A stretch of 64,000 bases of DNA from Glandiceps talaboti. Lineage: Eukaryota; Hemichordata; Enteropneusta; Spengelidae. Positions within the stretch are counted from its first letter, which is position 1. Each line of letters starts with the position of its first letter. The notes below the pieces were generated by a model, which worked only from the letters and a program-made list of their open reading frames with translations, was not told the origin of the DNA and did no database searches. The stretch spans positions 18,870,615 to 18,934,614 of the forward strand of contig NC_135555.1 of the NCBI RefSeq assembly GCF_964340395.1, read 5' to 3'. Shown here piece after piece: positions 9,973 through 64,000 of this stretch. Position numbers and translations under genes: made by a program.

Positions 9973-10595
9973 TCTACTACAATAGGTCAATTCAGTACAC
10001 ATACATGTACAAGTCACTGTTTTCTCCAGCAATTTGTGTATTTTAGTAATGCCCTGTTTTCCTCATTAACCAACACAGCCATACACTGATACATTGTAAA
10101 TGGAGGGAGGCATTTCATAAAACCACTGATGCCTACAGATGGTGTACATTGTGCTTGAAGGTTAGCAAGTAGTTGAAGTACATGTATACTAGTCTAGTTC
10201 CTACACAGTATCGTTACGATTTATACCTTCACTCACCGCAGTATAATCAAGGCCCTGACGAAAGGTGTTACATTTGTAATTATGGTGCAGCCCCATAGTG
10301 AGCAAAGCACAACAATGCATGCCACTAGTAACAACGGGCTGTTGTCACTGCTCATTAAATATTCATTTGGTACAGCTTTTTTCACGACGTAAAATGTCCA
10401 ACCAGGACTCCACCGCCAGTCCGTTTAAACTAAATTACATAGGGATGCAACAACATAATCATGTTTATATAAACGCAATAGGAGGTAGAACAGGAATGTG
10501 TGCTGGTTAAGGGAATTTGAACAAACTGTGTTGTGGTTATACCACAGTCCAGTTACCCAAACTACATGTATACTAATGTGAAAGGAAAGTTATAC

Positions 10596-10703
10596 CTACT
10601 CCAAGTGTTTTCTTTTGTTCTATACTTGCAGACTTGATTTTAAATCCACGAGATTCCAAAGCTTCACTCAAATCATTAACATACATAATGACTGGATCAT
10701 TCT
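10596..10703 (-). CDS. Candidate internal exon in the spacer
   Basis: On the minus strand a T-rich acceptor (ends CATAG) opens a 108-base exon that closes with a GTATAA donor. It encodes DPVIMYVNDLSEALESRGF and about 15 more residues. It ends with one base of a codon, which is exactly the phase the plus-strand exon at 11474 needs. In the left copy the next known exon (8145) starts in phase 0, so direct joining would break the frame. I read this as an upstream exon of the same gene, left on the opposite strand by rearrangement; that link is inference from phase and position. Confidence 0.45.
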
Positions 10704-11473
10704 CTATGAAAAAAAACACAAGAACAAGTTACTTTCACATTTTTTGTATTCAGCTATTCCAGTTGCTGTGATTCATGTAAAAGTATCAATACATTATTAA
10801 TTATTCAATTTCAACTTCAACTTTTATTACCCTTTTTGACAAGTTACAAATCACATTGGATATTATTATTATACATTTGGTACTGGAATAAAGGGTAAAG
10901 GGTAAACGGGAAATAGCAAATGCTAGTTGAGTCCGTTCTTGTGGTCACTGTATATTGCAGTTGTAAAATCACTAAGACATTTGGAGGGCAGTGTATCAAG
11001 AAGATGTCCTGACTTGTTAATAAATAAATAAAATAACTTATACATTTAAATAAGTAAATAAATTATACAATATAAACATAGAGCAGTAAACAAAATGTAA
11101 AATAGTTACAAAAAAATAATAATAATAATTTTGTAGAAGTTGGTATTTGAGGGAGTGCCTAAATGAGTAAAATCGAGTTGTTTTTGCTCTTATTTGCTCT
11201 GGTATTGAATTCCCAAAGAGAGGGCAAGTAAAGGATATAGCAAATTTACCTATGGATGTATTGACATTTGAAACATAAAGATTTTCTCTGCTTTTATAGC
11301 ATGTACAATAATTGTGAAAGGGTAAGCTGACAGTAGGTTGTTAGACGATGTGGTAAGTTGTTATTCATTTAAATCATACTTGAAGTTTGTGTAATTTGTG
11401 AGATATGTAATTATAATACCTGAAATTGTATATATCAAGAATGTAATATAGAGTTACTATCTCACAACAAAAG

Positions 11474-11873
11474 TGAAAGGCCTCGACTACCAAACACCTC
11501 AATTCTCGGATACATCATCACCAAATATATTACCTGAAAACTCTCTCTGTATGGACTTTAAAAAAGCGTCATCCACAATATTTGGGGCTGTTACTTTCTC
11601 CAATTCTGTAAGACCGATGCCTACCATCTGGTGCCTAACATCTAATTGCTATGTAATTAGTCACCAACCTGTAGGACTTTATGTCTTATACGCTAGGTTC
11701 AGTATAATAATGTTGGGTTCTTATATAGCGCTTTCCCACGCCGTGCTCAAAGCGCTTTACAATTATTACCCCTGGCTCGGATCAGAACGGCACAACGGTC
11801 CTTTAGTCTTCCTCTACTCCCCGGGGAGCATACAATCCAATTCTGTAGTGATATAGGCATAGAGCCCTGTTTG

Positions 11874-11957
<84 letters not shown>

Positions 11958-14900: not shown

Positions 14901-16051
14901 TCACCCTGAGAATCCGTATCAGCCTCGCTATCACATGCATCACTATCACCCTCACCACTATCATCAGTTCTCCAGAGTATTGTGTAAAATTAAGAGAGTG
15001 TGAACTCTAAATCCTGTGTTGAATACAGACATTCCATCAATAAGCCATTTTCCTTGTCTTGTGGCAGACCTCATGAGATTTGCGAATGTGGCTAACAATG
15101 GATGTCAAGGAGGTCAAGCTATTCTTGTTGCCATGTTGTTTTACATGAATGCTGCACTCCTCTAAAGAAATACTCCGCTTTTGTGAATACCAACATTTGT
15201 TAGTCATGGAAAGCATTGAAAAATTTAAAGTACCCGAGCTAAAGAGCTTGTTACAAAAATTTGGCATGTCAAAATGTACCATTAACATTACATTGTTGAC
15301 CAATACGGACGAAAGCTAGAAGTCTTAGACATTTTCTGAGAACAAATGTCCCATTTTGGTCCAAGAGTCTGAGTTCAGAATTGAACAGTTCTAAAATTAT
15401 CAAGATGGTAGCTACATCAACACAGTTCTTCACTGTTTGTGTAGATACCGGAAGGGTGAATTTCATAGTCTAGTTTCAATGTATTGGGCTACTTTGTGCA
15501 TAAGCAATGTAACTCAATTGGTCAATCAATATCTAGTAGGGTAGTTGTAGTGAATTCATTGAGATTAATCCTGATGCCAAAATAGTCGATAAGTACCATC
15601 ACATATATTTGTAACTCGTCTATTATCATTTTATTTTATTTAGAACACAAGTGGCGTACATGAAAAAGGAAAAGCTACCAAATCAACTGCAAGCCGTAGA
15701 AACAAGTCAACACCACCTGGAACACATAAAAAAATATCACAGGTTATCGGACAGTGCCTCAGTGTTGCAGATAGATCTCCATTTGAAACTGATGATTTCA
15801 AGATTGTGTACCATGTCTCCCTAATGGGTACCTCTCATATTGTAGTCACCCGTACACATGTTGCAAAGAGTACTCTTAGGGTAATTAAAGATGGTTGTGG
15901 AATTCCAAAGCAACAGGAGCTGGATTCTTCACAGACATTCACAATGAGCTTTTGTATTAACAATAGTCCCCTGTTATGTTTCAAAGTGCTGTATGTAGCA
16001 TTTTCATCTCTGTTCAAACTTTCTCAGAAAAAGATACATAACACATCATAA
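11474..16051 (+). CDS. Unrecognised gene, last four exons (right-arm copy)
   Basis: Four exons join in consistent phase: 11474-11607, 12928-13124, 13443-13581 and 15644-16051 (TAA stop). The donors are GTAAGA, GTAAGA and GTATGT, and acceptors end in CAG or TAG. Exon 1 of this set lies in the spacer, just outside the inverted arm, and reads KGLDYQTPQFSDTSSPN at its start; it is absent from the left copy. Later segments include SIGEGLLPPNIIWKIKKLI and DATRLCFDICGVQVRSET. No catalytic motif or known domain is apparent to me, and I assign no function. The first exon begins with one borrowed base, so more 5' exons are expected; none is seen upstream on this strand. It could be a 5'-truncated duplicate. 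Confidence 0.6.
11705..11855 (-). mobile_element. SINE 3' fragment (right arm)
   Basis: Arm partner of 9195-9345. It ends against the long GT microsatellite. Confidence 0.5.
11877..11950. repeat. GT microsatellite (right arm)
   Basis: Reverse-strand partner of the CA tract at 9117-9170, longer by about 20 bp. Confidence 0.95.
13827..14174. mobile_element. hAT-like MITE (right arm)
   Basis: Arm partner of 6899-7246, exactly the same length and with the same termini. Confidence 0.65.
14298..14600 (+). mobile_element. tRNA-related SINE (right arm)
   Basis: Arm partner of the SINE at 6480-6775, on the opposite strand as expected. Head, central domain and tail are in the same order. Confidence 0.6.
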
Positions 16052-16784
16052 ATTTAAGTTGGACACACTTTAACTTACTCTTTAGGCCAGAAAAAAAAAC
16101 AACCCCAAAACTGTTCAACAGGCCTAACCTACCTATATTTTTGGCATTTTATTGATGGTGGGCGGGCATCACATCATTAAAATGACTGTAGAGTACTGTG
16201 CACACTTATTATTATTCATATTTATTCTGACCATTGTGGGAAGTTAAGTTTATCAGTAGCCCCAGATTAGGTATTACGATAACTACATATAATCCCATAT
16301 TCGTTTGCATCCTAGCATGCTCAGTCTGGATTGCAAGTTCCCTATTAAAACATGGTGTGCGCAGGATGTTCCATGAAGTCAAGACTATGTGTTTGAATCA
16401 TCTGTGAGTACTAGTAGCGTGCGTTCTGTATGTGCATGGTGTATGCTTACTGTTAGATTGTGTGTTTAAGGTTATGTATTTGCACACAACTAGTACATGT
16501 ATTTAAATAAAACATTTCAGAAGGTTTTTTAGGAATAGGACAAAATATAATCTGCATCTGAATACAGACTAGATATTATAACGCTAAGTTCGAACGTATT
16601 GAGACAAAATGCTTAGTGGTACCAAATTACCAGTACTTTAATTACCTTTAAAATATATTAAAATACAATCACTGAATTTGTTTACATTTGAAACATTTCG
16701 AAAGTTTTCAGCTACCTGTGGTCTCAGCTGACACCAATGGAAGACAATGAATGAGTACATTTTGTTCTTGGAAGGGGTTGGTCT

Positions 16785-16880
16785 GTAAGGTACGCCGTGA
16801 AAGAGGCGCCCTCATACATCGGTCAACAACTTTCACAGCAGACCGGTGAGGGCGGAGCGACAGCTGAGACCGTATCTTAC
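16785..16880. mobile_element. Short inverted-repeat element (right arm)
   Basis: Arm partner of 1204-1294, with ends GTAAGGTACG and CGTATCTTAC. The core is less well kept than in the left arm. Confidence 0.45.
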
Positions 16881-17225
16881 TAGGAAGGGGTGTTGTGATA
16901 CTGGAAACAACAGTTGGACGATATGTTTACAGTATGATGGGAATTTATACAAATGTTGAACCTGACCCGAGTACTACTCCAGTGTCAAACACGGCTGACC
17001 AAGAGTCAACGAGACACAAAGCCAATAAATAGAGTTATACTAAAGTTCCATATTAAATTAAAAATACATGAATCCTTCCCTCAACATTTTCCTGACCAAT
17101 GTTATTCAGTGATCTAAGAACTAATTAGGAGAAATAGGTACTATTTATTGTATCTCAGACTACTCTGAGATTGTATGAGCAACTTGAAAATGAAAACCGA
17201 AATGCAACAGTCCGTGACCTAGGCA

Positions 17226-17571
17226 TTAAAAGTGGCCATATAGATTTTGGATTTTTAATTGATGAAAGAACTCCACTATGTTTTTTTGTACTTGAAAAAA
17301 TAATGTGACACAACGTATGCAAATTCTGTGTCCGTAACTCGGTAAATTGCAACAATTGGATAAAAGAGTAAAGAATTTGGTATTGTTCGCACAATTACAA
17401 ACTGTTTTGCTCATTTTGTAGATTTTTTTGCAACTTATTCAGTCACAAACACGGAATTGGTATAATATATGTTGTTGCATATTGTTATTTTTTGTAGAGA
17501 TTAATTCAATTAATTCATCAATAATTAAAATAATCCAAAATAACTATTTGTCGTCCATATGGCCACTTTAA
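17226..17571. mobile_element. Foldback MITE flanked by TTAA (right-arm copy)
   Basis: This is the arm partner of the element at 497-844, with the same termini and the same TTAA flanks at 17226-17229 and 17568-17571. Its presence in both arms means it inserted before the arms separated. Confidence 0.75.
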
Positions 17572-18569
17572 TATGTGATGACGTCTAACGGATAAATGGG
17601 GTTCCTTGAGCTGTACGGGTACGTAGATACACAATTAAACATAAATTGATAGCATATAAATGAAAATATAAGAATCAATCAACCATGCCCGGTTTAAGGC
17701 GTGCGGTCGTATTTCTCTGTTTACATGAATATGGTAAATTCACCCCTCTTATGTCTAGAAAAAAACAAGCATCGATCAAGCATTGAAGACAGAAACTTAT
17801 CATTCCCATTATTTTGGGCTATCAATGAGTGGTACCCCCTCCCCCCTCAGCACGGTATTGCTACTTGCTTGCGGTATTACCGTATATCATGTACAAGCTC
17901 TCTTTATACCAGCAAGAGATGGGTGCCCGTATCAACAGTGGATGGACACGTAACCGCGTAGAGTTTTTATTGAAGACGGGAGGTATAAATACTGCAACTT
18001 TCTCAATCTACTAAGGATTGTCAATAAGTCCATAGGCAGGCGGTAAAATACTACACCGCGAGGTCCATATAATCGCTATCACCCCTTTATTCTCGTCGGC
18101 ACCCTAAACGTAATATAATACCATTGGAGCATAATTCGTATAACATTGGTTTATGGTCGCAATATTTGGACTTTCCTTAATACTTCATTACAGAAAACTA
18201 ATGTAGGTAAATTACCAGATGTTATAAATATAGGACCAAGCGTAAACATAATTTTGACATTTGCGTTTTTATCTTGGTTTAGTCATATTGTGACCCGGAA
18301 AAGATGTGCTAAGAATGAGAGAAAAAACATTCAGAAGTGGAAGCGTTCTAGACCCAATTCTGCGTCTTATAGCAGGGAGTTATCGAATCACATGCTTATC
18401 ATGTGACCATGCAGTAACGCGCAGAGAACGTAGGTTTGGTTTATAGATGCGTGTAAGAAAACATTCCAGTTCAGAACACATGAAACTTGTGACTTGACTA
18501 GTTACACGTCTCTGCAGTGAATGAAATTGTATGTATATTGGCTATATTCCGGAGGTTCATCGTACGAAT

Positions 18570-43035: not shown

Positions 43036-45299
43036 TTACTGACAAAACAGAGTGAGTATGATGTGTGCCACCATACGAGAAACAAACCCATTGTAGCGCT
43101 TGGCAGCATGATCACTGCGATAGAAACGTATGCCTTTGTGTATATTCCCACAATAACAACTTCCAGACAATTCGAAATAATCGACTTTTGAAATGTTGTG
43201 ACTGTTGTGAAGAAAATCTTCGGTTAATGCATTCATTAGGGTTAGTCGAGGTTTGGACAAGAAGTCACATCTAGAGGTATCGCTACCTTCTGGGGAATTC
43301 ACCCAAATTATTTGTCCATGTTTTGAAAGAAGCGTCTGTAACTTGCTTGAAAATGCTGGGAGTAGAGTCTTGTATCTTTCAAAGACATTGAACTGTTCTG
43401 ATATATTACCATTTGGTTTTGCATCATGCAGACCAGTCAGAACGACCAACAAGTCTGCATTCCCATGTGGGATTAGTAAACGTTGTAAATCTGCATCGGT
43501 CTTTCCTACAACACAGTCAATTCCACATCCCAATGGTTGTGCCATCACGAAATTAAACTCTAGTCGTCCGCCCATCATATCAAGTGGTCTCGACGTTGAT
43601 TTACTTCTACCAACCCACAACTTCCTGGCTGCCATTTCCCTTTTACTCATCAAAGATGACTTGAAGTTTTGATAGTGATATATTTGTAGCAACTCATTTG
43701 TTAATTCTTCTGTTATTGAGTCTCCTATCAACAAGACTTTTTTTCCCAGGATGCACCTTTTCAAGTCGCCTGAGCTGTACATTTTGAAATGGCAATTGTA
43801 TGGTGCCCACACACGACGAGAACTGCGAAGAATGTTGACGTCACCTTCGCAAAGAACGCCATCACAGCCACTTTTTGGAATACTGACCCAGCGACCTGGC
43901 GATGTGCCTGTTGTACACAATGGTGTAGGTATTTTCTGGAGGGCGCAATTTTGATTACCCACGAGCATTAAAGACAGAGGTGAATTGTCTAGTTGAATGT
44001 CAAGGCAAGGGACGTGATGTCTGGTGTTGAACATTTTGAATCTATCCTTTTCTGTGTGAACCAATAATATTTCAAGACGATACTGTCCAATTGGAAGTGC
44101 GGGTATTGTTACTTCAAACACTCCCTGACCGGAATATATCACCGCAACTTTGTTAAAATGTAAACTGTAATTCTTGCCTTCTGGATATATTTCCAAATCA
44201 GGTCCAACTATTCTACCGTATACATCTAACCAAGGTTCACAGTCTACATTTTGACCTTCCTGGTTGACGCCTCTCACAGTTAGAACCTCTCTGGTACATG
44301 CATTTAAAATCAGGTTATTGTTCCTCATTTTCCTGTCAGAAGTGTCCAATATAAATCTGTCTGGATACTCACTTATGTTACAAAACTGTAAACTCGTTGA
44401 AGCCATGAGTCTTGACATTTCAACAGCTAAACTTACATTCCACAATGCTGCTTCTTGGATGTATTGATTTGATGAAAGTAAAGATACTGCTCTGAAATAT
44501 CCTTTTCCATACCAGTTCTGAAAGAGATGAAGAAATTATGTTAACCAATCTGAGATGACCAACACAAAATACTGGAAATGACTATTGTCTCGGGACATCA
44601 ATAAGGCATTGGTGATGAGACCTTTGAGTCGATATTTAGCATAAAACACCAGTACTCAATTTGCATTTTATAGACGCATAGGAGAATCCATCCATCCATC
44701 CATCCATCCATCCCTCTCTCCGTTTCTTCCTCCCTCTTCCGATCGATCGATCCATCCCTCCCTCCCTCCCTCTAGAGAACACATGACCATATCGCATGAT
44801 ATCCCCCACCAGGTCTTTAAATAAGATTACCATTGTCCGCTGTGATAGAAAAGTGAAATGGTGATGAATAAGCATGCAAGGTGCGTCACGTCAGCATAGG
44901 CATGAAAACTATGGTTTTTGTACATGGTTTATCCGCAGCCTAGTCAATACTCTACAGTCACTAACCTGGCAGAGACTCAGTTCAGTATGCAAACCCGATT
45001 AATTTTAAACAAAAAGAAAAGAGCTGCACCGATATCGGATATATCTCCTACCGAACAGGCTATTTCCTTATTTCGAGAAGCACCGTTTGCAAGATCAACA
45101 GGAATACTAGTAAAGTTCTTATTAAGGGGAAGGAGCAGTAATAACCTACCATGCTAAAAATAATCATGCCCATCCCAGCATATCCATAAAGAATCATACA
45201 TAATATAGTTGTCAATGTGATCATGGCAAATAACGTCTTCTTTATGTTTGTGGTAGACATCCGCACACTCGCCGTTTCTTTCTCGAATTTGTACGTCAT
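43036..45299 (-). CDS. PC-esterase (SGNH-like) type II membrane protein, NXPE-like
   Basis: Two exons, 45299-45150 and 44517-43036, both meet in phase 0 with GTAGGT and TTTCAG borders; total 543 residues. The N-terminus is short and basic, followed by one membrane helix (about 23-48, LFAMITLTTILCMILYGYAG), which predicts a Golgi-type type II protein. The luminal part begins with a beta-rich stretch and ends in the PC-esterase domain: GDSIT with nucleophile Ser317, an HGNADLLVVLTGLHD block, and RSDHAAKRYNG (Asp519-His520) near the end. PC-esterase proteins are thought to act on modified glycans, but the substrate here is unknown. The adjacent Asp-His is less usual than the family's spaced pair, so activity should not be assumed. 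NXPE-like is my best family guess. Additional exons between the two cannot be excluded. Confidence 0.8.
44684..44775. repeat. CCAT / CCCT simple repeat
   Basis: A CCAT run followed by CCCTC and ATCG units, inside the intron of the PC-esterase gene. Confidence 0.9.
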
Positions 45300-48990: not shown

Positions 48991-49141
48991 CCGGATAGAT
49001 AGGTTGAATCTTATTTTTACACTTTCTGAAGCCGAAAAATATCGACAATGTTGACATACGTACATGATCAAGAAGAACAGTGGACCACCATTACGTGCAT
49101 TTGTTCTGAGGTCTGTATGTTGATACTACTGTCAGTCAAAC

Positions 49142-49180
49142 CATGGAGGTATATAAGGGGTCTCCCCTTATACCTCCATG
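49142..49180. mobile_element. Miniature hairpin element, 39 bp, with 7-bp direct repeats
   Basis: Begins CATGGAGGTATATAAGGGG and ends with CCCCTTATACCTCCATG, a near-perfect palindrome. GTCAAAC stands directly on both sides (49135-49141 and 49181-49187). Confidence 0.75.
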
Positions 49181-50679
49181 GTCAAACTATTTCATCGATC
49201 TACTTATAAAATACAGTTTTTTTTCAGCCCCCAAATTGCCTCTGATTAGTGCTTTATCCTGTCGGTCATGGTGGCGGCCAAATTAAATGTTGGCCATACC
49301 TTATACCACATACGGTATTGCCCATAGTTTCCGGCGTACCTGTAGAGACGTACATGTATGTGAGATGTGATCTAGGATCTAGTGTCATACGCATACGCAG
49401 TTGTTGTCAGTGTACCCCGTGCTTTCTGTGTGCTAAATTTTAGACTCAACTAAGACTTCATGTATATTTTCACATCTAATGCTTAACATTCCTCTCTCAA
49501 GTTTGGCCCGCATAAATCCATTGTCGACAGTCAAACTTGTAGGAGTACGAGTGCATGCAAAGCAAGCATGCAGTGAATGTGCGGTGTGTGTGTGTTTGAA
49601 GCCTACTACATCCATGGTTTGACAGGCGAACACGATCAACATTAAGGAGGTTAAAATAACTACGATCAGATTTTGAACTGAATGCCTTCCGTAAGGGTAA
49701 TACTGAGCTTTTTGTTCCTACACATAATAATTGCTGGAATGCAACAATCTTGGTTATTGTAGGCTATTAGTACATGATATACCCCTGAATTGGCAAAAAG
49801 GTGTGCCAAACTATAGACATCTGAAAGTACTTTGTGATATCAATCTATGTATGTACATGTAGTGGAACAGATGTAATGGCTTTTGAAATTAAATTATTCA
49901 AATTTAAAGGGGTACACATACATCCGACATGCATACAGACATACGTACATTTACCCATGCATACAGAACAAATGTATGGATTGCTTATTGTAGCAACCAT
50001 GACCACATCCTTAGCAACAGTGAAATTATGATGCATATTACAAAGATAACAGAGATTGGTAGGTAAGAGACTAAATAGTCAAAAATTGCATGCAAATATG
50101 CATAGTAACAGGACCACGCCCATAACAATGGCTAAATGATTGTTTACATTGCAAATATGAAAACTACTGTAATGTAAAAAAGTTTTGAGCGATGGGCTGA
50201 GGCCTTAGCATTTGAAATAAAGCATATATTAATTATAATTGAGCTCAAACTGATTACAGTCACGGTAAAATCTCTGCATGTAGCTAATAATATGATCAGC
50301 CATTAGCTTTCCTTTAATAGAAACTGACTAGAATTGACTATTCCCCTTGTCTTCTGAATATATTCTGCGTTTAATTTGATACACCGTACTTTGTAGATAA
50401 TGATGTGCCTTAAGTGGTCAAAATAAATACATGGAGCAAATCTTTAGGATGTAACTGGTTACATACTACCACTCAGGCCTGTACACTCTCAAAACAATGC
50501 ACACTTCTATGTACTCCCTCAAAAGTATATAGAAACGTAAACATAGTAATAAGTAATACATATATACACACGCCTGCATATACATATATAGGTATACATG
50601 TAATAATGTACCATATATAACTATTTTTCAAATATATTCATTTCCTCATGCATATTATTAAGTTTGTCTGTGTATGTTT

Positions 50680-50682
50680 ATT

Positions 50683-50733
<51 letters not shown>

Positions 50734-50737
50734 TTTG
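50680..50737. repeat. TTTA microsatellite
   Basis: Uninterrupted TTTA units. Confidence 0.95.
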
Positions 50738-50884
50738 TGATGTGATCACTTGGTTTCTTGTGATATATGTCGAAGCATAAAACAAGAACAAATAATAGCG
50801 CCAATGGGGATGTAGCACAACTGTACAGTTTTTAACAATGTTTACCAATATCCTGATCCATGTAGGTATAGGTATTCATTTGCT

Positions 50885-51145
50885 CACAGGGAGAAGGACG
50901 AATAATCGATTTTGTTTAATACGATTTTCTCTATATGTCAAGTTGTTGTAAAGTTTTAAATATTGATTGTTGACTATTTTTTCCTATTTAATACCGTTAA
51001 CACTGTCTTATCAAAGTTTACCAGCTTTGCAATAGTAATAATAATAGTAGATTAATAATCCTATAACAAACTCGTGGGCTAATTGCCCAAATAACACATT
51101 GCGCAGTGAGTGTAAACATCTACTGATCCGACTAAAGGAAGTACT
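50885..51145. repeat. Dispersed repeat, copy 2
   Basis: Diverged direct copy of 48715-48990. Confidence 0.6.
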
Positions 51146-51734
51146 GCCGTTACTGCATATTAACAACCCAATCAACTTGTCTTGAACAAACTTATATCTG
51201 CTCATCCCAAAACACATACCCAACAAATTTCAACTCAATTGGCCCAGTAGTTTTGTATAAGATTCTTGAAGCATTTTTACCCAAAATTCTATGATTAGAC
51301 CTGATTTGCATATTAATGACCCAATCAATTTGTCTTGAACAAACATATCTGCTCTGTAGGTATCTAAATGATACCTACACACCAAATTTCAGGTCAATTG
51401 AGGCATTGACCATGCAGTTTTGACGGACGAACGACAGAGAATCAACCTATAAATGGAACACAGTGAATAAAGAATACAGAAATACGTTGTCAAAGATTTT
51501 AATAGTCGAGATTCAAAGATTGATACATTTATTCAGGTACCCAACAAAAATTAATTTACATAAGTTAAAACTTGAAAGCCCATGTACGCTTATGTATATA
51601 ATGTATTATTTAACATTATTACATGCAACGTTAAAGAGGTCACTGCAAGGTGTAGTTCAAGTTACATACTCTATTTAGTTCAAAGGGTCCATAACATGCC
51701 AAATTGAACCAACAATAGTCATAATGTAATACTG

Positions 51735-51890
51735 TACAGGTCGTTCAATAAATTGAATGACAGATCTTTCGCCATCTGTGGGCCAAAACTATGGAACTCT
51801 CTAACCGAGAAACTTAAGGGCATTGATAATACGGAACATTTTTAAACGTGAGCTGAAAACACATCTTCCTAAACAACATTGTGGACTGTA
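51735..51890 (+). pseudogene. LINE 3' end
   Basis: LNDRSFAICGPKLWNSL is the usual C-terminal text of L2/CR1 reverse transcriptases; the following segment is frameshifted (…NTEHF, then ELKTHLPKQ-like text). Confidence 0.65.
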
Positions 51891-51899
51891 TTTAATACA

Positions 51900-53480
51900 A
51901 TAGGCGTTGCTAGTCTGTTGTTTGATGGTCTGAGGCTCGGTCAGTCTGTGCCTCAACATAGAAACACGACAGGATGCTGTACATTGTCATCACGTCTTCT
52001 CCGGTTGCTGTTCTTTTGCAAAGTCGATGAATACCTGAAAAGTAAATAAATTTTAGCAGTTCAATGACCAGAACGTAGAGGATTCTCTATACTATCGTAA
52101 TGGTCACTTATATTTGCCCAGTTTCGAACTTTTATCTTGGATTTACACTTGAAAATGTCCTCCTTGACCCCTAGTTCGTATATTTCGACTGCCCTTGATT
52201 CCGTCAATTTTGTTTCTTACACTAGTAGAAAAAATAGTACAGTTTACGACACTTTCCGTACTATAGTTCAGATTGAGTTCAATTCTGTACTTTTATGCTG
52301 ATGAGGTGGACGTTTCTGTACTTTCCCATTAGCGCCTGTCTAATCGGATTATACTCGATCTGAAAAATAGTTCAGATTGCGAGTCGGAAGTGATTTGAAT
52401 ACATTTGCATTTAGTTCAGAATATATTCATGAGTTCACCCCCATAACCGGGCAGTAAACAAATGAATATTCAAATCTACCGTGCTTGCAATCAATACGTA
52501 CATAAACGCTATACGTGTAGCTAGTGTATTCGATACATATGTATGTATATAAGCAGGCTTATGATATGAACTACATGGTTAGGACGTACGTAGATTGTAA
52601 TATCACAGGGCTCATTTTGAAATAAATGTTCGTAGTACGCCTTTTCATTATGCACTATATACCGCCACCACTAAACGTGTTTCACATTTCTACGCGTTTG
52701 ATGCATAGTAATACAGATTTAGATGACATGACAATCGTTTCCAATAATAGTTTAAAATTGGGCCACAAATATTGCTAGTGTATGGAGCTTCTTAACAAAC
52801 CTGACCGGCCAATAGCGTCAACAAACTCACAGTAGAGACGTGCTGACAGATTTGAGTCTGTGGACATTATTTCTAGCTAAGTAAAATTGAGTGACTATTG
52901 GGAATATTATATGGCATCCATGTCGTCCATGTCGTCTATAGTTTCTGACTGACCGTGTTATGTACAACGTAACGCTGAACGAAATACGGTCCATCAGGAA
53001 TTAACTAGACTAACCTCTATGGGAATAGTATTCTTGTCCATGTGTCGTTTATAGAACAATTAAGTGTTAGGGTGTGATCTTCACAGTAATAAACAAGCCT
53101 TTAGAAGAACAACAGGTATTCACGCCTCAAATATCTTGGGCATCATCCAAATTACGATCATGAGCACCAAAGTAAAGGAAATACTTAATGACGTTCGGCA
53201 TGCAGAACCCCCCCCCCCCCGGGCCCGTACCTATGGGTACATGCCCGGCATCCATGTAACTGTTATATCACTCTACGTGACGATTCTGAGGGCCCTCATC
53301 TCTTATTCTCTTGTTTTATTTCAATTATACTCATAACTCCTGTTTTTATAGTATAACTGTACAATTGGCTTCGATCAGTGCATTCCAGATTTTCATGAGT
53401 CATGAGTGCACATTGCACAGATATCTGCAGAATACTTAAAAGGATTATGGGTAATGTATGCATATGCGGGAAAAACAAAC
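51900..53480. other. No gene recognised
   Basis: Unique-looking AT-rich sequence. A C-run at about 53210 and short palindromic words at its edges are the only structure I see. Confidence 0.5.
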
Positions 53481-53494
53481 TGCTGTAAGGAGCA

Positions 53495-53648
53495 TAGTCT
53501 CGCTGCCAGACTCGAGACTATCGTCCCTAATCTGTTTACCGAGCGGCGCAGCCGCGAGAATAGAGGGGGACTGGTCCCGCTCTTCTCGCGGCTGCGCCGC
53601 TCGGTAAACAGATTAGGGACGATAGTCTCGAGTCTGGCAGCGAGACTA
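53495..53648. mobile_element. Mutator-like foldback MITE, 64-bp perfect arms, 9-bp target duplication
   Basis: Begins TAGTCTCGCTGCCAGACTCG; its first 64 bases are the exact inverse of its last 64, around a 26-base loop. TAAGGAGCA flanks both sides (53486-53494 and 53649-53657). The perfect arms suggest a recent insertion. Ends agree with the elements at 34164 and 34731. Confidence 0.9.
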
Positions 53649-53659
53649 TAAGGAGCACT

Positions 53660-54700
53660 GACTTTGCCCTCATATCTTCATCCCATTTTGCACTGAAGAA
53701 GTTTCACATGGCTCTCATATTTCATATATACTCTTTCTAAATATATGGTGATGCAACATGAGTAAAAATAACTGGGGTTAACTAAGTTTGGTAGTCAATA
53801 TAGCAGGTTTACCATCAAACTGACGCAAAATTTGTTTCAAATTTGTCTAGTAAAAACCGTTGGCCCAGTTGTCGATTAGGCTTACAAGTTACACAAAGCA
53901 TGATAAGATACTGTGAATGGTGCAAATAAACAACGTGCGAAATGCCAAATACCAAATGCAAACAATACAAGCGAACAAAAGGGCCTGTATGCACTCTAAT
54001 AGCCCGATATTTTGCCTAAAATCAGGCTCACATGTGCGAACGGTGTGTTTTTGACGTACCTAGTAGGCAGTGATGTAGATAATAGCCGGTTACCGGTCAC
54101 AACGCCCAGCTATAACTTATAAGTATAACAGTTGTGGGACCGGCTTAGGAAAGTACTCAAACCTGACGATCATTGAACAACTTCTAAGGTTGGAAAATTA
54201 AATATGAGTTGCCCGGGAGTTCTAATAGCAAGTAAAATACCCAAAGTGTAAACAAAAAGATAAATTAATTCATAATTATTTGGAAAACATTAGACGATTA
54301 CGCAGTAAAACAAGACTGGCCACGCTATCGCTAGCGAAAGCCTTCGAACTAGTTTCATAACGACCGGACGTTGAAGGAAGCGCGAAGCGAAGTGTGAGGT
54401 CAATGTGACGTCTCATGATGATGTATGATGCATCAACATGACGTTTACGTAGAGTTGCACTAAATGTTTTCTAAACTTCAGTGGAAAGAATTTTTGTCGA
54501 TCAGACACTGACTATGTTTAAATTCTTAAAACATCTGAGAAAACTGAAGAGGGGAAGCAAAATGTGACACTGACAGACAAGCCAGACGTACGGCACATGT
54601 ACAGAAGGCGAGGCACACCCTCTGATGCAAACTGGACAATTATCGTGCGTGTCACGTATAAGGCATCAGATGTAATACATGTAGCTAACCAAATATTCTT
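53660..54700. other. No gene recognised
   Basis: No ORF, splice-bounded exon or repeat family that I can support. Confidence 0.5.
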
Positions 54701-54704
54701 GTAC

Positions 54705-54707
<3 letters not shown>

Positions 54708-54769
<62 letters not shown>
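54708..54769. repeat. GA microsatellite
   Basis: About 30 GA units. Confidence 0.97.
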
Positions 54770-54771
<2 letters not shown>

Positions 54772-55499
54772 GAGACCAAACTAGAGTCGGTACTCACCCC
54801 ACCACGACATATGCATTTTTGTGATTTTGAAACGATAAAGAATGTTAATATGGATATTGGGACGATTGGAAATCGGACGATGTGAATCGTAATCGAATAT
54901 CTCAGACCATCCACAATATATGTCGTGTTGACTTAGGCGATCCCAGAAACCATTCTTAGTTTACCCCTTTCACATATATTATCAACCATGCTAATGTTTT
55001 GAAACAAATCTCGATTAACAGGTAATTTAGCGCTTGAAAGATGGCGACGTCCATACCCCCCCCCCCGGCTGCACATATTTTAATATGCAATTATACATTA
55101 CCCCCTCCCCATACACGTCAGAGAAGTACAGTATGGTACACTATATGACACACTGTAAGCTAACAGTGGAAATCAACTTCAGTGTCCATACATATCAGAC
55201 ATAGAGATTTCTTTACAAATGGATGTGGGCTCATTGGGCTGTAACCTGTACTTGGAAAAACTTAACCAGCAGAGTTTTCGTTTTGAATCCTATGTCTTGA
55301 CAGAAACGGCACCCCCCTTCGATAACTAGTGGGGAGGGTGTGTCCCCCTCCCACAGTAGGCAATTGTTTGAAAAATAAGGACATGTAGGAGGCCATTTAG
55401 CGGCATAATATTTCAAACCATACACATTATTGGAAGCCATAAAATACTTGAGAGAGAGAGAGAGAGGCATACACTTATACAAATGTAAATTTACTTGGT

Positions 55500-55625
55500 A
55501 AACAACTGCTCCTGAGGTTTAATTTTGGTTCAAATCATGAGCAGAATATTCGGGGGCCCTTTCAGACCATCACAATTGTCATGCCCCCCTCCCTTTGAAC
55601 CTCAATTTTGTTCATGCCCCCCCCG
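55500..55625. repeat. Dispersed repeat shared with 61240-61400
   Basis: CTGCTCCTG, TCAAATCATGAGCA and CCCTTTCAGAC occur in the same order in both places. Confidence 0.5.
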
Positions 55626-55649
55626 TAAATTCTGACTCCAGCATAATTT

Positions 55650-56500
55650 CAAGTTTATTCCGAGCTCGGTATTACAGGCATTCGACTAGAGTCTTTATAC
55701 CTCAAAGATATACAACAGTCCATTTCTGTACAAGGCATATCAGAAACCAAACATTTGCAGTGTGGAGTGTCACAAAACCCTGTGCTTGGTCCACTCTTAC
55801 ACGCGTATGCTGTCTATACACATCACCACTTGGAAAGCTAATCCGACATCAAAATCTCAATATGCAACAACATGCAGACGACAACCAGATTTACCAATAT
55901 ATTTCCCCAATCACATACGTCAACTACAGTAACTAAGATGGAAACTGTTGCACATGATATTAAACGACCCAAAATAAGCTAGTTTAATGATGGCAAAACC
56001 GAGGTCCTCCTTATCACGTCTCAGTTCAACAGGCTTCCTCGTCTCATGAACCACATCAACATGGGATCGTCTTCTGTGCAGTTAGTGGATTCAGCATGTA
56101 CCATTTGTGTAACAATTGATGACCGTTATAACCTCAAGAAGCACATCTCGTTGACATGTAGATCAGTTCTTTTTCACCCCCGAACAATAGGTCGCATCAT
56201 TGACAGTGGAGGGGGCCCCTCCACTGTCTATGGTCGCATACGCCAGTATCTTACAAACGGAGTTTGTCAGAACCTTGGTCATGCACTTATATCATCGATA
56301 CCTGACTACTGAATGGCCCTTCTGTATGGGCTGCCAGCTAAAAACATTGTTCCTCTTGAACATGCCCAAAATACAGCAGCTAGGATTGTGTCAGGTACAA
56401 AGAAAACAGATGACGTCACATCGGTTCTTTCAATAACACAGTTTAGTTAGAAATCACACTGGCGTCAAGTGCAGTTACATAATATACCAGTAGGTAGGGC
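55650..56500 (+). pseudogene. Decayed L2/CR1-like LINE reverse transcriptase
   Basis: Readable pieces include VQGISETKHLQCGVSQNP, NMQQHADDNQIYQYISP (where YADD has become HADD), GKTEVLLITSQFNRLP, a KKHISLTCRS block and AQNTAARIVSGTKKTDDVTS. Stops and frameshifts separate them. A miniature hairpin element interrupts it at 56198. Confidence 0.85.
56198..56232. mobile_element. Miniature hairpin element, 35 bp, inside a decayed LINE
   Basis: Begins CATTGACAGTGGAGGGG and ends CCCCTCCACTGTCTATG. GTCGCAT flanks both sides (56191-56197 and 56233-56239). The LINE sequence continues on both sides as if cut at this point; hairpin plus duplication add 42 bases, so the frame is kept. Confidence 0.8.
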
Positions 56501-56832
56501 CTACATGTACATGTAGTCTCAGGTCACTACATTGTGGTCTGAGATGTAGTTTACACCACTATGACCTAAGAACTTGAACCAGGGCTGAGGAGAAGTGGTC
56601 TGAGGTTAAAGTTTTGCAGCTCTCGTTCAGCAATCTCAAAACATTTCAGCCTACTTCCCGTAATGAACACTTGTCAAGCATTTTTGTAGCTCCCATACTC
56701 AAAGACTACATATATGTTTATATACGACTCAAAATATAACACTGAAATTTACTTTGAACACGTTCAGTTTCAGTAGACCTATTAAAACCCAAAATCTCCA
56801 CTGTATAATTTAATATCGGTAATAGTTTACAG

Positions 56833-57078
56833 TCAAAAACTTTTAAATTTAGTTTTGACTAGGAGGTCCCCAAGTTTTGCAAGTTGACTCATGACCGCAA
56901 TCATTGCTTTACTCGCTTGAGCTGCAAGCGCTAAATACCATAGACCACTGCTTGACATAATCACGCCTAGATATTCATAAAAAGCGAACAACGTCGAGTT
57001 TATGACCACCAATAACCACTTTTCAATTTTCTTAAGAATTTCATCTCTTAGTAAATACAATAATTTTAGTTTTGACAT
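56833..57078 (-). pseudogene. LINE fragment, post-RT region
   Basis: Open on the minus strand and containing YEYLGVIMSSSGLW, AAQASKAMIAVMSQLAKLG; this is the usual text after the reverse transcriptase of several LINE clades. Confidence 0.55.
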
Positions 57079-57079
57079 A

Positions 57080-58066
57080 CATGTAATTTACTTTCAAAAG
57101 ACAATGTTAGAAACCCCTACCCCATTGATTCCTGTGGGAACATGCCTTTCGTGAAGAAAAAATGGTTACATAACATGTCTACAAGAATTGTTGGAGAATG
57201 TCTATGTAGAATGCCACACTGATCCCATATCCACACCTTGAGTTTTATTTTTATTGTTCTTCAATGATCTCCTTCAAAGTAATAGTCTGGATGCCAATAT
57301 GGTTTCTAACTAAACCACGTCTAGCCAAAAGCCCCTCAAATAGCACAAAAAGTTGTTCACCCAATCAGTGAAACCTAAATGTTTTGGTGATGTAAACAGT
57401 ATATAAGTAGCATCATGGGCTGACAAATATACCACATTTGAACATTACTGTCCCAATAAACACTAACTTTATGAGGGACTGTGTTATTGGTTAGAGTTTT
57501 GTGATTTATTAACAAAGACATGATGTTAATGACTGTGTGGGTGGCTGTAAATGAATTTTAAATTGCATCTCATGCATTTCAAGACTTCTAGAGTAACGAC
57601 TCTGACTATACTTTGAGTGGAGGTATAAATGGTAATGATACAGTATAGGAACTAGACTATCAAAGTAATTACCTTGTCCAAAAGACTACAGTCGGATATT
57701 AATCTCACCATTAATGCCTGAATTTATGTCTATCAAGGTGGATCTGATAAGATCATGGAAATCGAGAAACTTTCATCACTTTGGACTTGAGCATTGAATA
57801 CATTTGTGAAGTACTCAGACCATGATTCATGTTTTTTTTTAGAGATTAATTCCACTAGATCGTCCACTAAATCGTCCACGAAAACAAATACATTCTATCA
57901 TTCCACCATGTCACTCAACAACACGCATCGAATTCTATCACTTGAATTTCCGTTATTTAGTCGTCTGAAGATCGTAACGGACTCCGTACCATAACTTGTG
58001 TACTTTGTGTAAATACAGCTCTACTTCTCAGTATTGAGCACTTTTCCTTCAGTTTATGACTTACCT

Positions 58067-58070
<4 letters not shown>
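57080..58070. other. No gene recognised
   Basis: No coding or repeat signal that I can support. Confidence 0.5.

Positions 58071-58145
<75 letters not shown>
58071..58145. repeat. TA microsatellite
   Basis: About 35 TA units. Confidence 0.97.
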
Positions 58146-58147
<2 letters not shown>

Positions 58148-58546
58148 CCATTGCTCGGTTGACGGCAACGCGGTCAAAGATATCGGGTTCTTTGCACAAT
58201 ACACGTGTATATAGAAATGATGTCCCTTAAATTTCCCCTCTTTTCATTCTTGCTCTTTTCAACTACAATATAGATTTTGATAATTTCCATAGGTCTCACG
58301 AGATATACTCTTCAAGGAAAAACAAGTTCGTGTCGGAGTTTGACACGAGAATAGTCTGTGCTTGGAGTAATTATACTGTCAGTATAATTTCTCAAAGGTA
58401 TGTGTTATCGTGGAAGTTTAAACATTATTTATACTTTAATGGTGTTATAGATTTTGACCCAAGCTATGCATGCCACGGTCACAAGCTATATTGCGTCAGA
58501 TCGATTTGCCAAACAAGTTTGCCAGAATTAACGCATCCCATCAAAC

Positions 58547-58578
58547 CATGGACCCTCCACAAAGGTGGAGTGTCTATG
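58547..58578. mobile_element. Miniature hairpin element, 32 bp
   Basis: Begins CATGGACCCTCCAC and ends GTGGAGTGTCTATG. The seven bases on each side are ATCAAAC (58540-58546) and GTCAAAC (58579-58585), six of seven identical. Confidence 0.65.
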
Positions 58579-58849
58579 GTCAAACAAATGACAGGTCGCA
58601 GAAACTAAGGTCATGGAAGTATGAACGTCGTTTATACTTGTACGCCGTGACATACAATGAGCGCAGTGCCATGATTGACCGGATTATTCAGTGTCGACAA
58701 TCCCAGTTAATATAATCCCAAAGGCAAACTTGTTTTATTTACCACCTTGCCAAGCAACACAGGGTGGTGGCGAGGCGAAGTTGTAATGTACTGTCGCTTT
58801 GATATTCACGATTTTGGAAAGGAAATAGATAACATCGGGTTAGATCTTG

Positions 58850-60211
58850 AGAGTAAATAAGAAGAAAAGAAGAGTTAATTTGAAATCAGTGATAAACGAG
58901 TTGTCTATTTTTAAGAAACTAAATATAAGGAAAGCTATGGGTCCTGATAACATATGTGGTAGGTTACTGAAAGTCTATGCATCGCAGTTAGCTAGTGTTT
59001 CCAGTAGATTGTTCAATTGGTCGTACAATGATCATACGATATCAACCATTTGGAAAACATCTACCATCTGTCCGGTCCCTAAAAACTTCCAAGGCATCGT
59101 CCTGTAGCACTGACTTCCATTGTGATGAAATGCTTCGAGCGTATTTTACTTTGTCAAAACCCACAAAAACATTCACACCTTGACCCATACCAATTTACAT
59201 ATTAAAGTAATAGAGGTACTGATAATGCAACTCTCACATTACTTCACGATGCGTATACACATCTTGAAAAACCAAGTTCATTTGTAAGACTGTTGGTTAT
59301 TGATTTTTCATCAGTCGTTAACAGAAGTCAACCAAACATGATGGCTCATAAACTTAGTTATTTAAACGTTAACCCCAAACTCATCCTCTGGATAATGGAT
59401 TTTCTTGTCAACCTTTCCCAGTTTGTTCGCTACCAAAAATTAAGTTCAGCCTTCCATTCAACATTTAGGGGTGCCTCACAGAGCACGATACTCTCACACA
59501 AACTATTTACACTTTACACAAATGACTGCTCATCAGGTACCGATACAAATCCACTTATCAAATATTCTGATAACTCTGCATTAGTTGACCTGTCAAATTC
59601 TGACCGTACTTATTTCGATGAAGTTGATAGGTTTGTTACTTGGTGTAAAGAAAACTACTTGGACGAAAGGTCGACTTTAGGAAGAACCCTAAAGTAGTGC
59701 CCGACCTTTTTATTGACAATGTTAAAGTTGAACAGGTGACTAAATATATATATATATATATATATAGGAACAGTCTTGGATAATAAATCAAATGTTAAGG
59801 CCAACACAGATTTCATTAACAAGAAATGTCAATCTAGAGTTTACTGTCTACAACAATTGAGGGGCCTAAAATTTTGTAAATGCCAAGGTATTACAGACAT
59901 TCTATCGGAGTTTTGAGTCGGTTTAACATTTTCTTTTTTGTGCTGGTTTGGTAGTCTAGGGACTAGCTACAAGAGTGTCTTGAACAAAATTGTAAATGTG
60001 TTTAGTAAAGTATTGAGTGAAAAGTAGACTAATTTGAATGAAATGTTTACATCTCGTGTACAAAACAAAGCTGGGAAAATGGTAATTGACAAAGGCCACA
60101 TTATGTCCCAACACTTTGAACTCCTGCCATCAGGGAGACGATTTCGTGTCCCTAAATTCAGAACAGTCAGAACCAAATCAAGTTTTGTGCCCACTTCAAC
60201 TAAATTTTAAA
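58850..60211 (+). pseudogene. Decayed LINE, Rex1/L2-like
   Basis: Pieces in order: IRKAMGPDNICGRLLKVYAS, TSTICPVPKN, FVRLLVIDFSSVVNRSQPNM (catalytic DFSSA-type motif, D kept), ASQSTILSHKLFTLYTNDCS, YSDNSALVDLSNSD (YADD-like motif as YSDN), VTWCKENYLDE, and at the end HFELLPSGRRFRVPKFRTVR. A TA tract is inserted near 59745. Stops and frameshifts throughout. LPSGRRFR is a hallmark of the Rex1/Babar-type C-terminus as I know it. Confidence 0.85.
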
Positions 60212-60254
60212 CCAAACTAAATAATTCTATTTCAAAGACATCTGCTCTGCATTC

Positions 60255-60390
60255 CAGATTGGAAGAACCGCGTTTTTTTATTGTCTTTTTTAAGTTGATG
60301 ACCATTTCTGGCAAGACTTCACTCACAATTTTCTCGATTTTACTGATTTTTCTTCTTTATTAAAAAGGTTTAGGGTCGGCACCGGATTTC
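60255..60390. mobile_element. Partial MITE
   Basis: Middle part of the family at 32320-32705 and 63505-63875: TATTGTCTTTTTTAAGTTGA and TTTAGGGTCGGC. Confidence 0.55.
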
Positions 60391-60466
60391 TAGAATGGAA
60401 GCGTTTGGGGAGTTATGTGTGATTTATTTGTTGAGAAAGGTTCAAAGACAATAAATATCGCCATAA

Positions 60467-60507
60467 GGTGGCACTTGCCGTTCCAGTGAGGAACGACTAG
60501 TGCCACC
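60467..60507. repeat. Imperfect hairpin
   Basis: GGTGGCACTTGCCGTTCC against GGAACGACTAGTGCCACC with a 5-base loop. No flanking direct repeat. Confidence 0.7.
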
Positions 60508-60646
60508 ACGGTAGTACTCGACAATTCGATGGACCACGGCCAAGTCCGCCATTCACAATTTTCAAATCACTTGAAATAAAGCAATCTGGCAAAACTCGCC
60601 CATGTGCATTTACAATCTTGTCGCAACTAATTCTAGTAGGTAAAAC

Positions 60647-60670
60647 CATAGACCCTCCACCCTGTCTATG
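60647..60670. mobile_element. Miniature hairpin element, 24 bp, with 7-bp direct repeats
   Basis: CATAGAC and GTCTATG enclose a 10-base loop of CCTCCACCCT. GTAAAAC flanks both sides (60640-60646 and 60671-60677). Confidence 0.75.
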
Positions 60671-60679
60671 GTAAAACCT

Positions 60680-63480
60680 AGTCGCATTCATAACTTTCAT
60701 CGAGGGTAAGGTAATTTTAGTCATCAACTTCTATAAAGTCCAAAATGAAACGATAAAACATGTACATTTTGGAAATTATCCCATGTATAATGCCAGATTA
60801 TAAAGTGACAAAGAGTGGTTCATCTGAGTGGATAGCTTAACCTCTTGACCGTCGGACGATTTATAAACAATGGGAAATAGGCAGCTATCTTGATGTTCAT
60901 TTTAACCTATTTTCCCGGAGAATATTTTCAGAACTGGTATCCAAATTACCAAGATCACGTTTTTCATATTTACTGATATGCCGCTTTAGTTATGGCCGGT
61001 TTTGTGGGATGTTTTGCGTGCACAATGTAAACCACAGACAAGGCATGTAAACTTCTACTTGCAAACCCGTCTATTTCAGGCTTGGCCTCTTACCACTCTT
61101 GGAGGAATTGTACTGACTCCTCCAAGACCACGTCTGACACAGTGGCCTGAAACCCATAGTCTATCGCGAGTATATTGTCTACCCTTCAAGAGACACACAT
61201 TCTCTGCCAGTCACCCTTTTAAAAATACGCTTGTTAAACGTCTGCTCCTGGAGTTAAATTTGGTTCAACTCATGAGCAAAATATTTGTACGTGACTCCGG
61301 GCCCCTTTCAGACAATCCGAATTTTCACGCACGTCCCAATTCGTTTTTTTCCCGTGACAACAATTTTTCTCCTGAGCCTCCCCCTACCCTAATCTAGTTC
61401 CTGACGACCGTATTCCAATTTTACACTACATCTTTACATATTACGTATAGTCAATGTCATTACTCTCGTTGCCGATGTGTTGGCAATTATATACATGTAT
61501 ATATATAATATCCATAATCACAACATATTTCCTGCTCAAAGAAGAACTGTTTCAGCTTATTCCATTTCGATATAAACAGACAGAGAGTCCAGGGATAAAA
61601 TACCCATGTACTACTCCTTATATTACTGGCTAGGTAATGTCAACCGTAAAATAATCCAAGCACCAGCGTCCCTAAAATCCGTGAAACAGTGTCGATATTA
61701 CAGTATTTTGCTGACACTTATTACTTTCTGTAACTGGTCTATATTTGTGATATCATGGTAAATATGCTTGGAATTTATGGCCTAACAAACCAGACATTAC
61801 GTAGATTTGAATATTGAAGAAAATCAAAAACAAAAACAAGGCCATGGCCATGGCCGGTCAGGTACTGATATTAGTACTTTAGACATCAGTGGGGGTCACA
61901 CTTGGTCATTGAAACTATATTGACCGACCAAAATTCTAAACATCACGGATAAATAATTTCATATCGAAATGTATGTACGGAGATTCAGGTTTTTAGACCA
62001 CGTGGCTTTGACATGACATCATCAGCTAAATTTGCAATACGAAAGTAACGTAAAACATGGATGTATCTAGTAGGGAGCAAAGTCCGCATGTCTGTATGGA
62101 TGTTTGAAGATTTACTATCGGTATATGGGAGGCATAGAGGGAAATATTTGAATAGCGTTATTTAACGTTACATAATTCATAACTGACTACTAAACTACCG
62201 TCAAGAGGATTGTTTTTGCTTCCATTTATCTGTATTAATTTTTTTTAAAGGCAGTGATGGTGACTGCCAATGCCGGTAGTGAAAATATGGCCCGCACATT
62301 CTGAAGATTTTTGTATCATACAAGTTCAATGTTGTAGCTGAGAATGTGATTTATATTTATAACTCAGTAGAATGGGTACCGGTACTGATGCGAGGGATGT
62401 GAACCAACCTTTGTGTTGCGTGCTTTTTAATATCACCGTGTGTGTGTGTGTGTTGTTTGTTTGTTTGTTTGTTTGTTTGTAATGTAGATTCGTCGTTGAT
62501 ATACTGCTACTAGATCAGACCGTGGGTTATACTTCCATGATCAGAACATGACCAGACACAACTCTCCACGGCACCATTTTGGTTTTACAACTTTGATTAC
62601 TTTGTTTTGAATAGCTTTTGTCAAGTTCTTGACTTTCCTGATATGACAATAAAGCAAGGGCGGTGAAATATTATTATAGTAGTCCTTCAAAAAACAAGAC
62701 AATTTTGAAACTTTTAGTGGAAAATGTTAGTGAAGACACAGTTTACCCGCATAAATTAACTAACAAAAGACAAAAGAAATGTACACATGGTTCATTTTCT
62801 AGGTGTCGACCTCATGAATATGCACCAAGATTTAGAACCGAGTCAGCTTTAAATGTGTTCACACCTCCAAATCTGGTCTGGACAATATTGTCTGGGCTTA
62901 GTCACCCTTTTATGCGGACTACAGAGCGGCCCTGGTGCGGACTATTTCTGCCACCTATTAATGCCTGAAAGTCAAGTGGCATATGCTGAGGTTGTGTACA
63001 ACCAGCAACCCATAACATTTTAGCAATCTACAGTTCTACCTCAGTATGGCTATTAGCCATGCTAGGTAGTTACTATAATGATTAATATAATGGTTGTCTT
63101 GGTAAAAGTTGTCGACCCCCCCCCCAAAAAAAAAGAAGAAAAAAAAAAGAAAAAAAGAAAAAAAAAAAGATCAACAAAACATTCTATGATATTGAAAGCG
63201 CTCCTGGCATGTAATTCCATAGAACAGTTTCCTGTAGGGAATGGCAGCGATTTCATTCAAACTCAAAGACAGAGATGTTGCTAACCAACGTGAACAGCCA
63301 TAAAAAATTGTATGTGAATGAGTATGACTCTGAGATCCCGCTAACGGTTTCATTGTTGTCGGTCTAACCAGAGACACTGGAGAACTTCACTGTCTATGAT
63401 CTAATCGTATTGCTCAGTGTGAAAACCGTGCAAAGCGTTACTATTTTGGCGTTGTATTTTCGCACATTTTTGGTTCACAA
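60680..63480. other. No gene recognised
   Basis: Contains a hairpin (CTTGGAGGA/TCCTCCAAG, 61098-61126), a GT/GTTT tract near 62440-62480, and an open frame at 62663-62968 that I cannot assign. The rest shows nothing supportable. Confidence 0.4.
63112..63170. repeat. C-run and purine-rich tract
   Basis: Nine to ten C followed by about 45 A/G bases. Open frames on both strands here are artefacts. Confidence 0.9.
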
Positions 63481-63504
63481 GGGTCCAATAATTTAAGCTT
63501 GAGT

Positions 63505-63875
63505 TAGGAAATAGGCCTATTAAAAAAATTGTGTTGTTCCGATTAGGCAAAATAAATAAATAGGTGGGGTAGGTAGATTTATTTTTATTCATGTGCGAGT
63601 GTCTAATTCTGGTTTTCCATTTTTTCCAAATGATCTCTGTGTTATTGGCTTCTTTCCATTAGATGTACAACCATTACAGATTGGAGGAACAGTTTTATAT
63701 TGTCTTTTTAAGTTGATGTCAGTTTCTGCATCCACTATGTCTCGTGAGACTTCACAATTGTTGCGATTTTGTTAGTTTTTCAAGAACACGTAAAAAAAAA
63801 GTTAAGGGTCGGCAGTGAAAAACTAGGTGGGTCGGGTAACAGAAACCAAACAGTTATTTTTTAGGCCTAAGGCAT
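63505..63875. mobile_element. MITE, second full copy
   Basis: Bounded by TAGGCCTA-type inverted ends followed by A-rich text, and matching 32320-32705 throughout (ATCTCTGTGTTATTGG, GATGTACA(A/G)CCATTACAGA, TTTCTGCATCCA). Confidence 0.7.
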
Positions 63876-64000
63876 AACGTAGCATATAAATCTACCCAAC
63901 CTGCGCGAGCAAGATCTGCATCGGTCAATGTAATATTTACATGGTCTATTACAATTTGGTAAAGTGTACCATTGTATATGCTTGTGCGAGACGTAAAAAG

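Follow-up and report, generated by a model that had tools for sequence, protein, structure and literature searches.

What produced the four short hairpins, each enclosed by direct repeats of 7 bp, that lie in a stretch of 64,000 nucleotides from the acorn worm Glandiceps talaboti (contig NC_135555.1, positions 18,870,615 to 18,934,614; this whole stretch is called the window here)? The original prediction, made from the sequence of the window, regarded them as minute mobile elements, smaller than miniature inverted-repeat transposable elements (MITEs). Our analysis leads to a different answer, and that interpretation is most likely wrong. Each hairpin is very probably the footprint of an excised transposon of the P superfamily, in which the two truncated inverted-repeat ends were probably joined back to back, with a 7-bp copy of the target on either side.

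All four hairpins are found where they had been predicted (Table 1). Their 7-bp flanks are identical in three cases and within one mismatch in all four, hairpin 3 being the one that deviates. In the 64-kb window, they are the only pairs of CAT.GA and TC.ATG, 12 to 5000 bp apart, whose flanking 7-mers differ by at most one mismatch. A motif-blind scan for short elements with inverted repeats and identical 7-bp flanks returned two elements in the window, hairpins 1 and 2, and 0 elements in 30 Markov-simulated windows.

Hairpins of this type are abundant in the genome (590 Mb, 47 contigs). The general pattern ACCATNGAN{5,35}TCNATGGT matched 1232 places, against 60 for the reversed control. The sample analysed covers 50 listed matches out of the 1232, which all fall in the first 25.6 Mb of contig C1. 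Dropping duplicates and adding window hairpin 1 left 39 distinct hairpins. Their 7-bp flanks are exact in 18 cases, differ by one mismatch in 6 and by three or more in 15. Cross-pairing of left and right flanks between loci gives an expectation of 0.34 exact pairs and 2.92 pairs with one mismatch. The repeats act like target-site duplications, and the excess of matching flanks proposed as a check of this idea is present in this sample. Three of the 24 flank-matching hairpins are copies of hairpins 3 and 4. Among the 15 poorly flanked ones, some are other palindromes or pieces of repeats, and one (L012) is actually a longer footprint with exact flanks. Arm pieces are repeated in L012 and L007, as expected of copied filler.

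The general pattern fixes AC and GT beside the hairpin, so a target preference is not visible with it. A second pattern, CATAGACAGTN{5,35}ACTGTCTATG, leaves the flanks free and defines a set of hairpins that we call family F. It matched 261 places in the genome and a single one in the reversed control. The sample comprises 44 of 50 listed places, one unit having been kept from a seven-unit tandem array. No pair among the 44 loci has more than 20 flanking 12-mers in common. The 7-bp flanks are exact in 29 of them and carry one mismatch in 7, with 0.19 and 2.26 expected, respectively. The 29 exact duplications yield a palindromic target consensus of approximately R-T-T-N-A-A-C, which bears out the target preference that had been suspected from the window. 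At one locus (L110, C2:5596562-5596813), a footprint-like hairpin of 30 bp together with a 7-bp target copy occurs seven times with a period of 37 bp, apparently a footprint turned into a tandem array.

Transposons with matching ends are present in the same genome. They were reached by a genome search for TNP-like_GBD (PF21788), a domain of P-element transposase, combined with a search for ends that was independent of the CAT.GA motif. The domain search returned five loci, and about 10 kb around each was scanned for CA..TG ends, inverted repeats and flanking repeats of 7 or 8 bp. Element L053 (contig C14) measures 9,454 bp, with the duplication GTATAAT and a perfect 36-bp inverted repeat, CATAGACAGTGGAGGGGAGAAGGACAGGAAAGCCGG. 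Element L054 (contig C24) measures 9,179 bp, with the duplication GTTACAT and a 37-bp inverted repeat, CATAGACCCTACACCAACAGGATACGCAACTGCGGCA. Both are thus flanked by 7 bp, not by the 8-bp duplication of Drosophila P. At a further locus, L052, the sequence is 98-99.5% identical to L053 but is cut by the edge of the extracted stretch. In the genome search, PF21788 matched at both the L053 and the L054 loci. Open reading frames (ORFs) of L053 and L054 match the two RNase H halves of P-type transposase (PF21787 and PF21789), with TNP-like_RNaseH_N at 2e-23 and 2.2e-25, respectively, and RNaseH_C in both; the GTP-binding insertion domain (PF21788) is also found in an ORF of L053. Of the 24 ORFs listed for L053 and L054, 10 were scanned and showed no THAP domain, a search that small exons could escape. 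A search of the PDB with the transposase ORF returned nothing. In both elements, the strand that does not hold the transposase ORF carries a C2H2 zinc-finger-like ORF with weak Pfam scores (9233-9604 in L053, 690-1034 in L054) and an ORF of about 345 amino acids without a Pfam match (7112-8146 and 1862-2902, respectively).

Some hairpin arms follow the terminal inverted repeats (TIRs) of these elements. Over the first 17 bases of the L053 TIR, hairpin 2 matches exactly in its right arm and with one substitution in its left. The arms of two surveyed hairpins, L008 and L009, track the repeats of L054 and L053, respectively, for 15-17 bases with one mismatch allowed; L009 lacks matching flanks. 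Bases 14-20 of the right arm of hairpin 1, read inwards, are, in a comparison by eye, identical to bases 14-20 of the family-F inverted repeat.

How far the arms extend along the repeat could be determined for the 36 well-flanked hairpins of family F, by scoring against two references, the repeat of L053 and a variant that differs from it at one base and was derived from the hairpins. The arms range from 10 bases, the minimum of the pattern, to 20 bases. Seventeen of the 72 arms reach 20 nt and none is longer, although the repeat spans 36 bp and the pattern permits 55 bp in total. At least one full 20-nt arm is retained in 14 of the 36 hairpins. The junctions between the arms vary: 22 have no middle base, 2 overlap by one base and 12 contain 1-16 middle bases. 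The arms of this one family suggest that the transposase may cut about 20 bases inside the element.

These observations are consistent with the following course of events. An element of about 9 kb would insert at a palindromic target resembling RTTNAAC, where the two strands would be cut 7 bp apart. At excision, the transposase would cut one strand at the edge of the element and the other about 20 nt inside, so that each flank would retain a 3′ tail of 20 nt with an identical sequence on both sides. Because the two tails have the same sequence, they would not pair with each other. End joining would then trim and fuse the tails, in many cases with no filler and in some with copied filler, and by geometry the fused tails would form a short hairpin. 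Hairpin 1 would be composed of approximately 19+20 nt; hairpins 3 and 4 would have been trimmed further, hairpin 4 unequally. Our first model was a Drosophila-like cut of 17 nt. Hairpin 2 fits it, with a putative composition of 17+1+17, but the arms of family F reach 20 nt and the 17-nt model was therefore replaced by one of 20 nt. Hairpins 2-4 would later have spread as passengers of a larger repeat.

This larger repeat is young and multicopy. It exceeds 17 kb, has its left edge inside the window (Table 1) and shows about 97-99.9% identity among six copies on contig C1 and the window. Hairpins 2, 3 and 4 recur in other copies of this carrier repeat and are therefore not recent separate events at this locus; they appear to have been present before the carrier spread. 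In three of the six copies (L056, L058 and L064), about 296 bp corresponding to window positions 55938-56233 are tandemly duplicated, and the junction of the duplication is the right edge of hairpin 2, as though the hairpin were the breakpoint.

Empty orthologous sites had been proposed as a further check; relatives that lack a hairpin exist as paralogous repeat copies, not as orthologous alleles. The joined flank of hairpin 2 (101 bp) was compared with the genome, and 40 rows of 213 candidates were scored. The junction is crossed without an insert in 24 of these 40 rows (82-95% identity), exactly 42 additional bp are present in 11, all on C1, and 5 end at the junction. Likewise, the footprint in L038 is missing from a related repeat at window positions 52365-52491, where a 10-bp difference adjoins. 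When the window was compared with itself, none of the four hairpins had an empty counterpart, and the six copies of the carrier repeat contain no hairpin-free site for hairpins 3 and 4; the one copy without hairpin 3 has lost the entire region. Footprints can also be nested. At L024:289-366, a footprint with the target GTATAAC sits within an older one, whose own target is ATTACAC and whose arm supplied the inner target.

Table 1. Hairpins, their target copies and the repeats that contain them (window coordinates).
Feature	Position	Strand	Remarks
Hairpin 1, left target copy GTCAAAC (7 bp)	49135..49141	+	
Hairpin 1, 39 bp	49142..49180	+	Right arm inwards CATGGAGGTATAAGGGGAGA, 20 nt
Hairpin 1, right target copy GTCAAAC	49181..49187	+	
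Young multicopy repeat carrying hairpins 2-4	52220..64000	+	Starts CACTAGTAG; part inside the window, runs on beyond
Dispersed-repeat frame	56001..56447	+	Interrupted in frame by hairpin 2 and one target copy (42 bp)
Hairpin 2, left target copy GTCGCAT	56191..56197	+	
Hairpin 2, 35 bp	56198..56232	+	Family-F inverted repeat, 17 nt (one substitution) + G + 17 nt reversed
Hairpin 2, right target copy GTCGCAT	56233..56239	+	
Hairpin 3, left target copy ATCAAAC	58540..58546	+	
Hairpin 3, 32 bp	58547..58578	+	Arms of CATAGACCCTCCAC type
Hairpin 3, right target copy GTCAAAC	58579..58585	+	One mismatch to the left copy
Hairpin 4, left target copy GTAAAAC	60640..60646	+	
Hairpin 4, 24 bp	60647..60670	+	Unequal arms, CATAGACCCTCCACC type
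Hairpin 4, right target copy GTAAAAC	60671..60677	+	

Could the hairpins themselves be mobile? As minimal non-autonomous elements, or extreme MITEs, they would be cut and pasted by a P-type transposase, and this would account for the target duplications, the TIR-like ends, the high copy number and the few identical sequences at separate sites. However, such an element should have a near-constant sequence, whereas 30 of the 36 well-flanked hairpins of family F are distinct and show unequal arms and fillers. Their arms, moreover, end at 20 nt of a 36-bp repeat. The P elements of Drosophila need their inverted repeats and internal transposase-binding sites in order to move. Repeats of 31 bp and such internal sites are described for them (PMC7776569), and the P-MITEs reported from Anopheles retain the ends of their parent (PMC1562414). 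We consider mobility of the hairpins themselves to be very unlikely.

Explanations that dispense with a transposon fare even worse. Template switching can yield short inverted repeats, and the hairpins might then represent filler of ordinary double-strand-break repair or replication slippage; such filler would not be expected to match specific transposon ends, including those of full-length elements, nor to show duplications of 7 bp in a fixed register, a target consensus and 261 places against one in the control. This origin is scarcely credible. The near-perfect stems and the many copies might also point to a functional RNA or protein-binding family under selection, such as a terminator or a regulatory site. 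Yet the middle and the length of the hairpins vary freely, the insert is absent from relatives of the hairpin-2 site, and no Rfam family matched the window at the gathering threshold; a tRNA scan of the window also returned nothing. A selected function of this kind seems extremely improbable.

The interpretation as excision footprints of P-type elements draws its strength from a combination of features. The residue starts and ends with the bases of the parental inverted repeat (in hairpin 2 and family F, as judged from the TIR of L053), the arm limit of 20 nt lies below the TIR length of 36 bp in the one family measured, the junctions vary between copies, and P-type transposons with these ends (L053, L054) are present. 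Nevertheless, several points weigh against it. Excision by a P-type element is deduced from sequence and not from observed events. Clear ends were found at two of the five transposase loci only, L051 and L055 being without them, and the search yielded no parent element for hairpin 1 or for the kind of arm seen in hairpins 3 and 4. Flanks differ at two or more bases in 8 of the 44 family-F hairpins and at three or more in the 15 of 39 mentioned above, of which L012 is resolved. Some identical hairpins occur at unrelated loci, as would also be expected of a minimal mobile element. The 20-nt limit comes from a single family, partly scored against a TIR variant derived from the hairpins, and the arms of hairpin 2 end at 17 nt, not 20. 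Finally, in 19 of the 66 Drosophila isolates tabulated in PMC2895639, the joins leave about 7 bp or less, and the genome patterns used here are blind to such short residues.

What would such footprints mean for the genome as a whole? It is likely, in our view, that hundreds of P-type excisions, by elements of several families, have left a legible fossil record in this genome, in which a branch with 7-bp duplications would cut 20 nt inside the element instead of 17, repair would mostly be plain end joining in the germ line, and nested footprints would place waves of activity in order. Excision traces of transposons are often too slight to be recognized. The hairpin trace would identify itself, so that losses of transposons could be counted genome-wide as well as gains. 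If this holds, break repair in the germ line of a non-model animal could be read from its natural products, and the cut offset of a transposase that has not been assayed could be obtained from sequence alone. For repeat annotators it is a warning that such hairpins are not to be logged as the smallest MITEs. Excision footprints as a kind are already known; the natural record at genome scale and the inferred 20-base cut are new. In literature titles and abstract openings, to which this statement is confined, there was neither a genome-wide set of natural P footprints nor a 20-nt offset.

Other features of the window deserve a brief description. The frame interrupted by hairpin 2, for which neither Pfam nor a protein search gave a match, is presumably a remnant of a CR1-like reverse transcriptase. 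Window positions 1-18069 contain a large inverted duplication, in which 1-2809 corresponds to 18069-15240 (93%) and 5829-9418 to 15238-11628 (98.6%). A retroelement ORF on the minus strand (2894-5680), with RVT_1 and endonuclease domains, lies between the left-hand pieces of the duplication and is absent from the right arm. Another minus-strand ORF (43036-44535) has a weak match to NXPE4_C. The five database matches listed for this NXPE-like ORF all come from acorn worms, two from Ptychodera (56 and 53% identity) and three from Saccoglossus (40-41%).

The closest known counterpart is the P element of Drosophila. Its transposase makes a staggered cut of 17 nt (PMC7776569), and excision is described as leaving non-complementary 3′ overhangs of 17 nt (PMC2895639). 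The end-joining products reported there contain both 8-bp target copies, each inverted repeat contributes no more than 17 nt, and their junctions show microhomology, blunt joining or inserted bases. In Table 1 of that report, the residues of 44 of the 66 isolates, those in which they are longer, measure 7-44 bp with a median of 30; the isolates excluded from this count are the 19 short joins mentioned above and 3 others that lack one target copy. The corresponding set from this genome, made up of 23 of the 24 well-flanked general-pattern hairpins (the second copy of hairpin 3 was omitted) and window hairpin 2, measures 17-45 bp with a median of 32, the range being bounded by the search pattern. 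The two groups are alike in layout and size, in the presence of both target copies, in a fixed limit of bases per end, in junctions with microhomology, blunt joining or filler, and in a residue that is often about 30 bp. They differ in that the Drosophila footprints, as reported, come from laboratory crosses and have duplications of 8 bp and arms of no more than 17 nt (PMC2895639), whereas the hairpins described here have 7 bp and at most 20 nt per arm in the one family measured, and form a natural, genome-wide record.

Other members of the P superfamily share single traits with this system. Galileo of Drosophila is described with 7-bp duplications and a palindrome-like target consensus, GTAGTAC, but its inverted repeats are long and foldback-like (PMC2775673). 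In zebrafish Pdre2/THAP9, the inverted repeat likewise starts with CATA; the repeats are however given as 13 bp and the duplications as 8 bp, and excision by zfTHAP9 in fly cells is reported to produce larger flanking deletions (PMC10983969). The P-MITEs of Anopheles gambiae are, similarly, short non-autonomous relatives of P with target duplications. According to their description, they keep the 5′ and 3′ parts of the parent and a central region and have 8-bp duplications (PMC1562414), whereas the hairpins of G. talaboti retain no more than 20 nt from each end in the one family measured.

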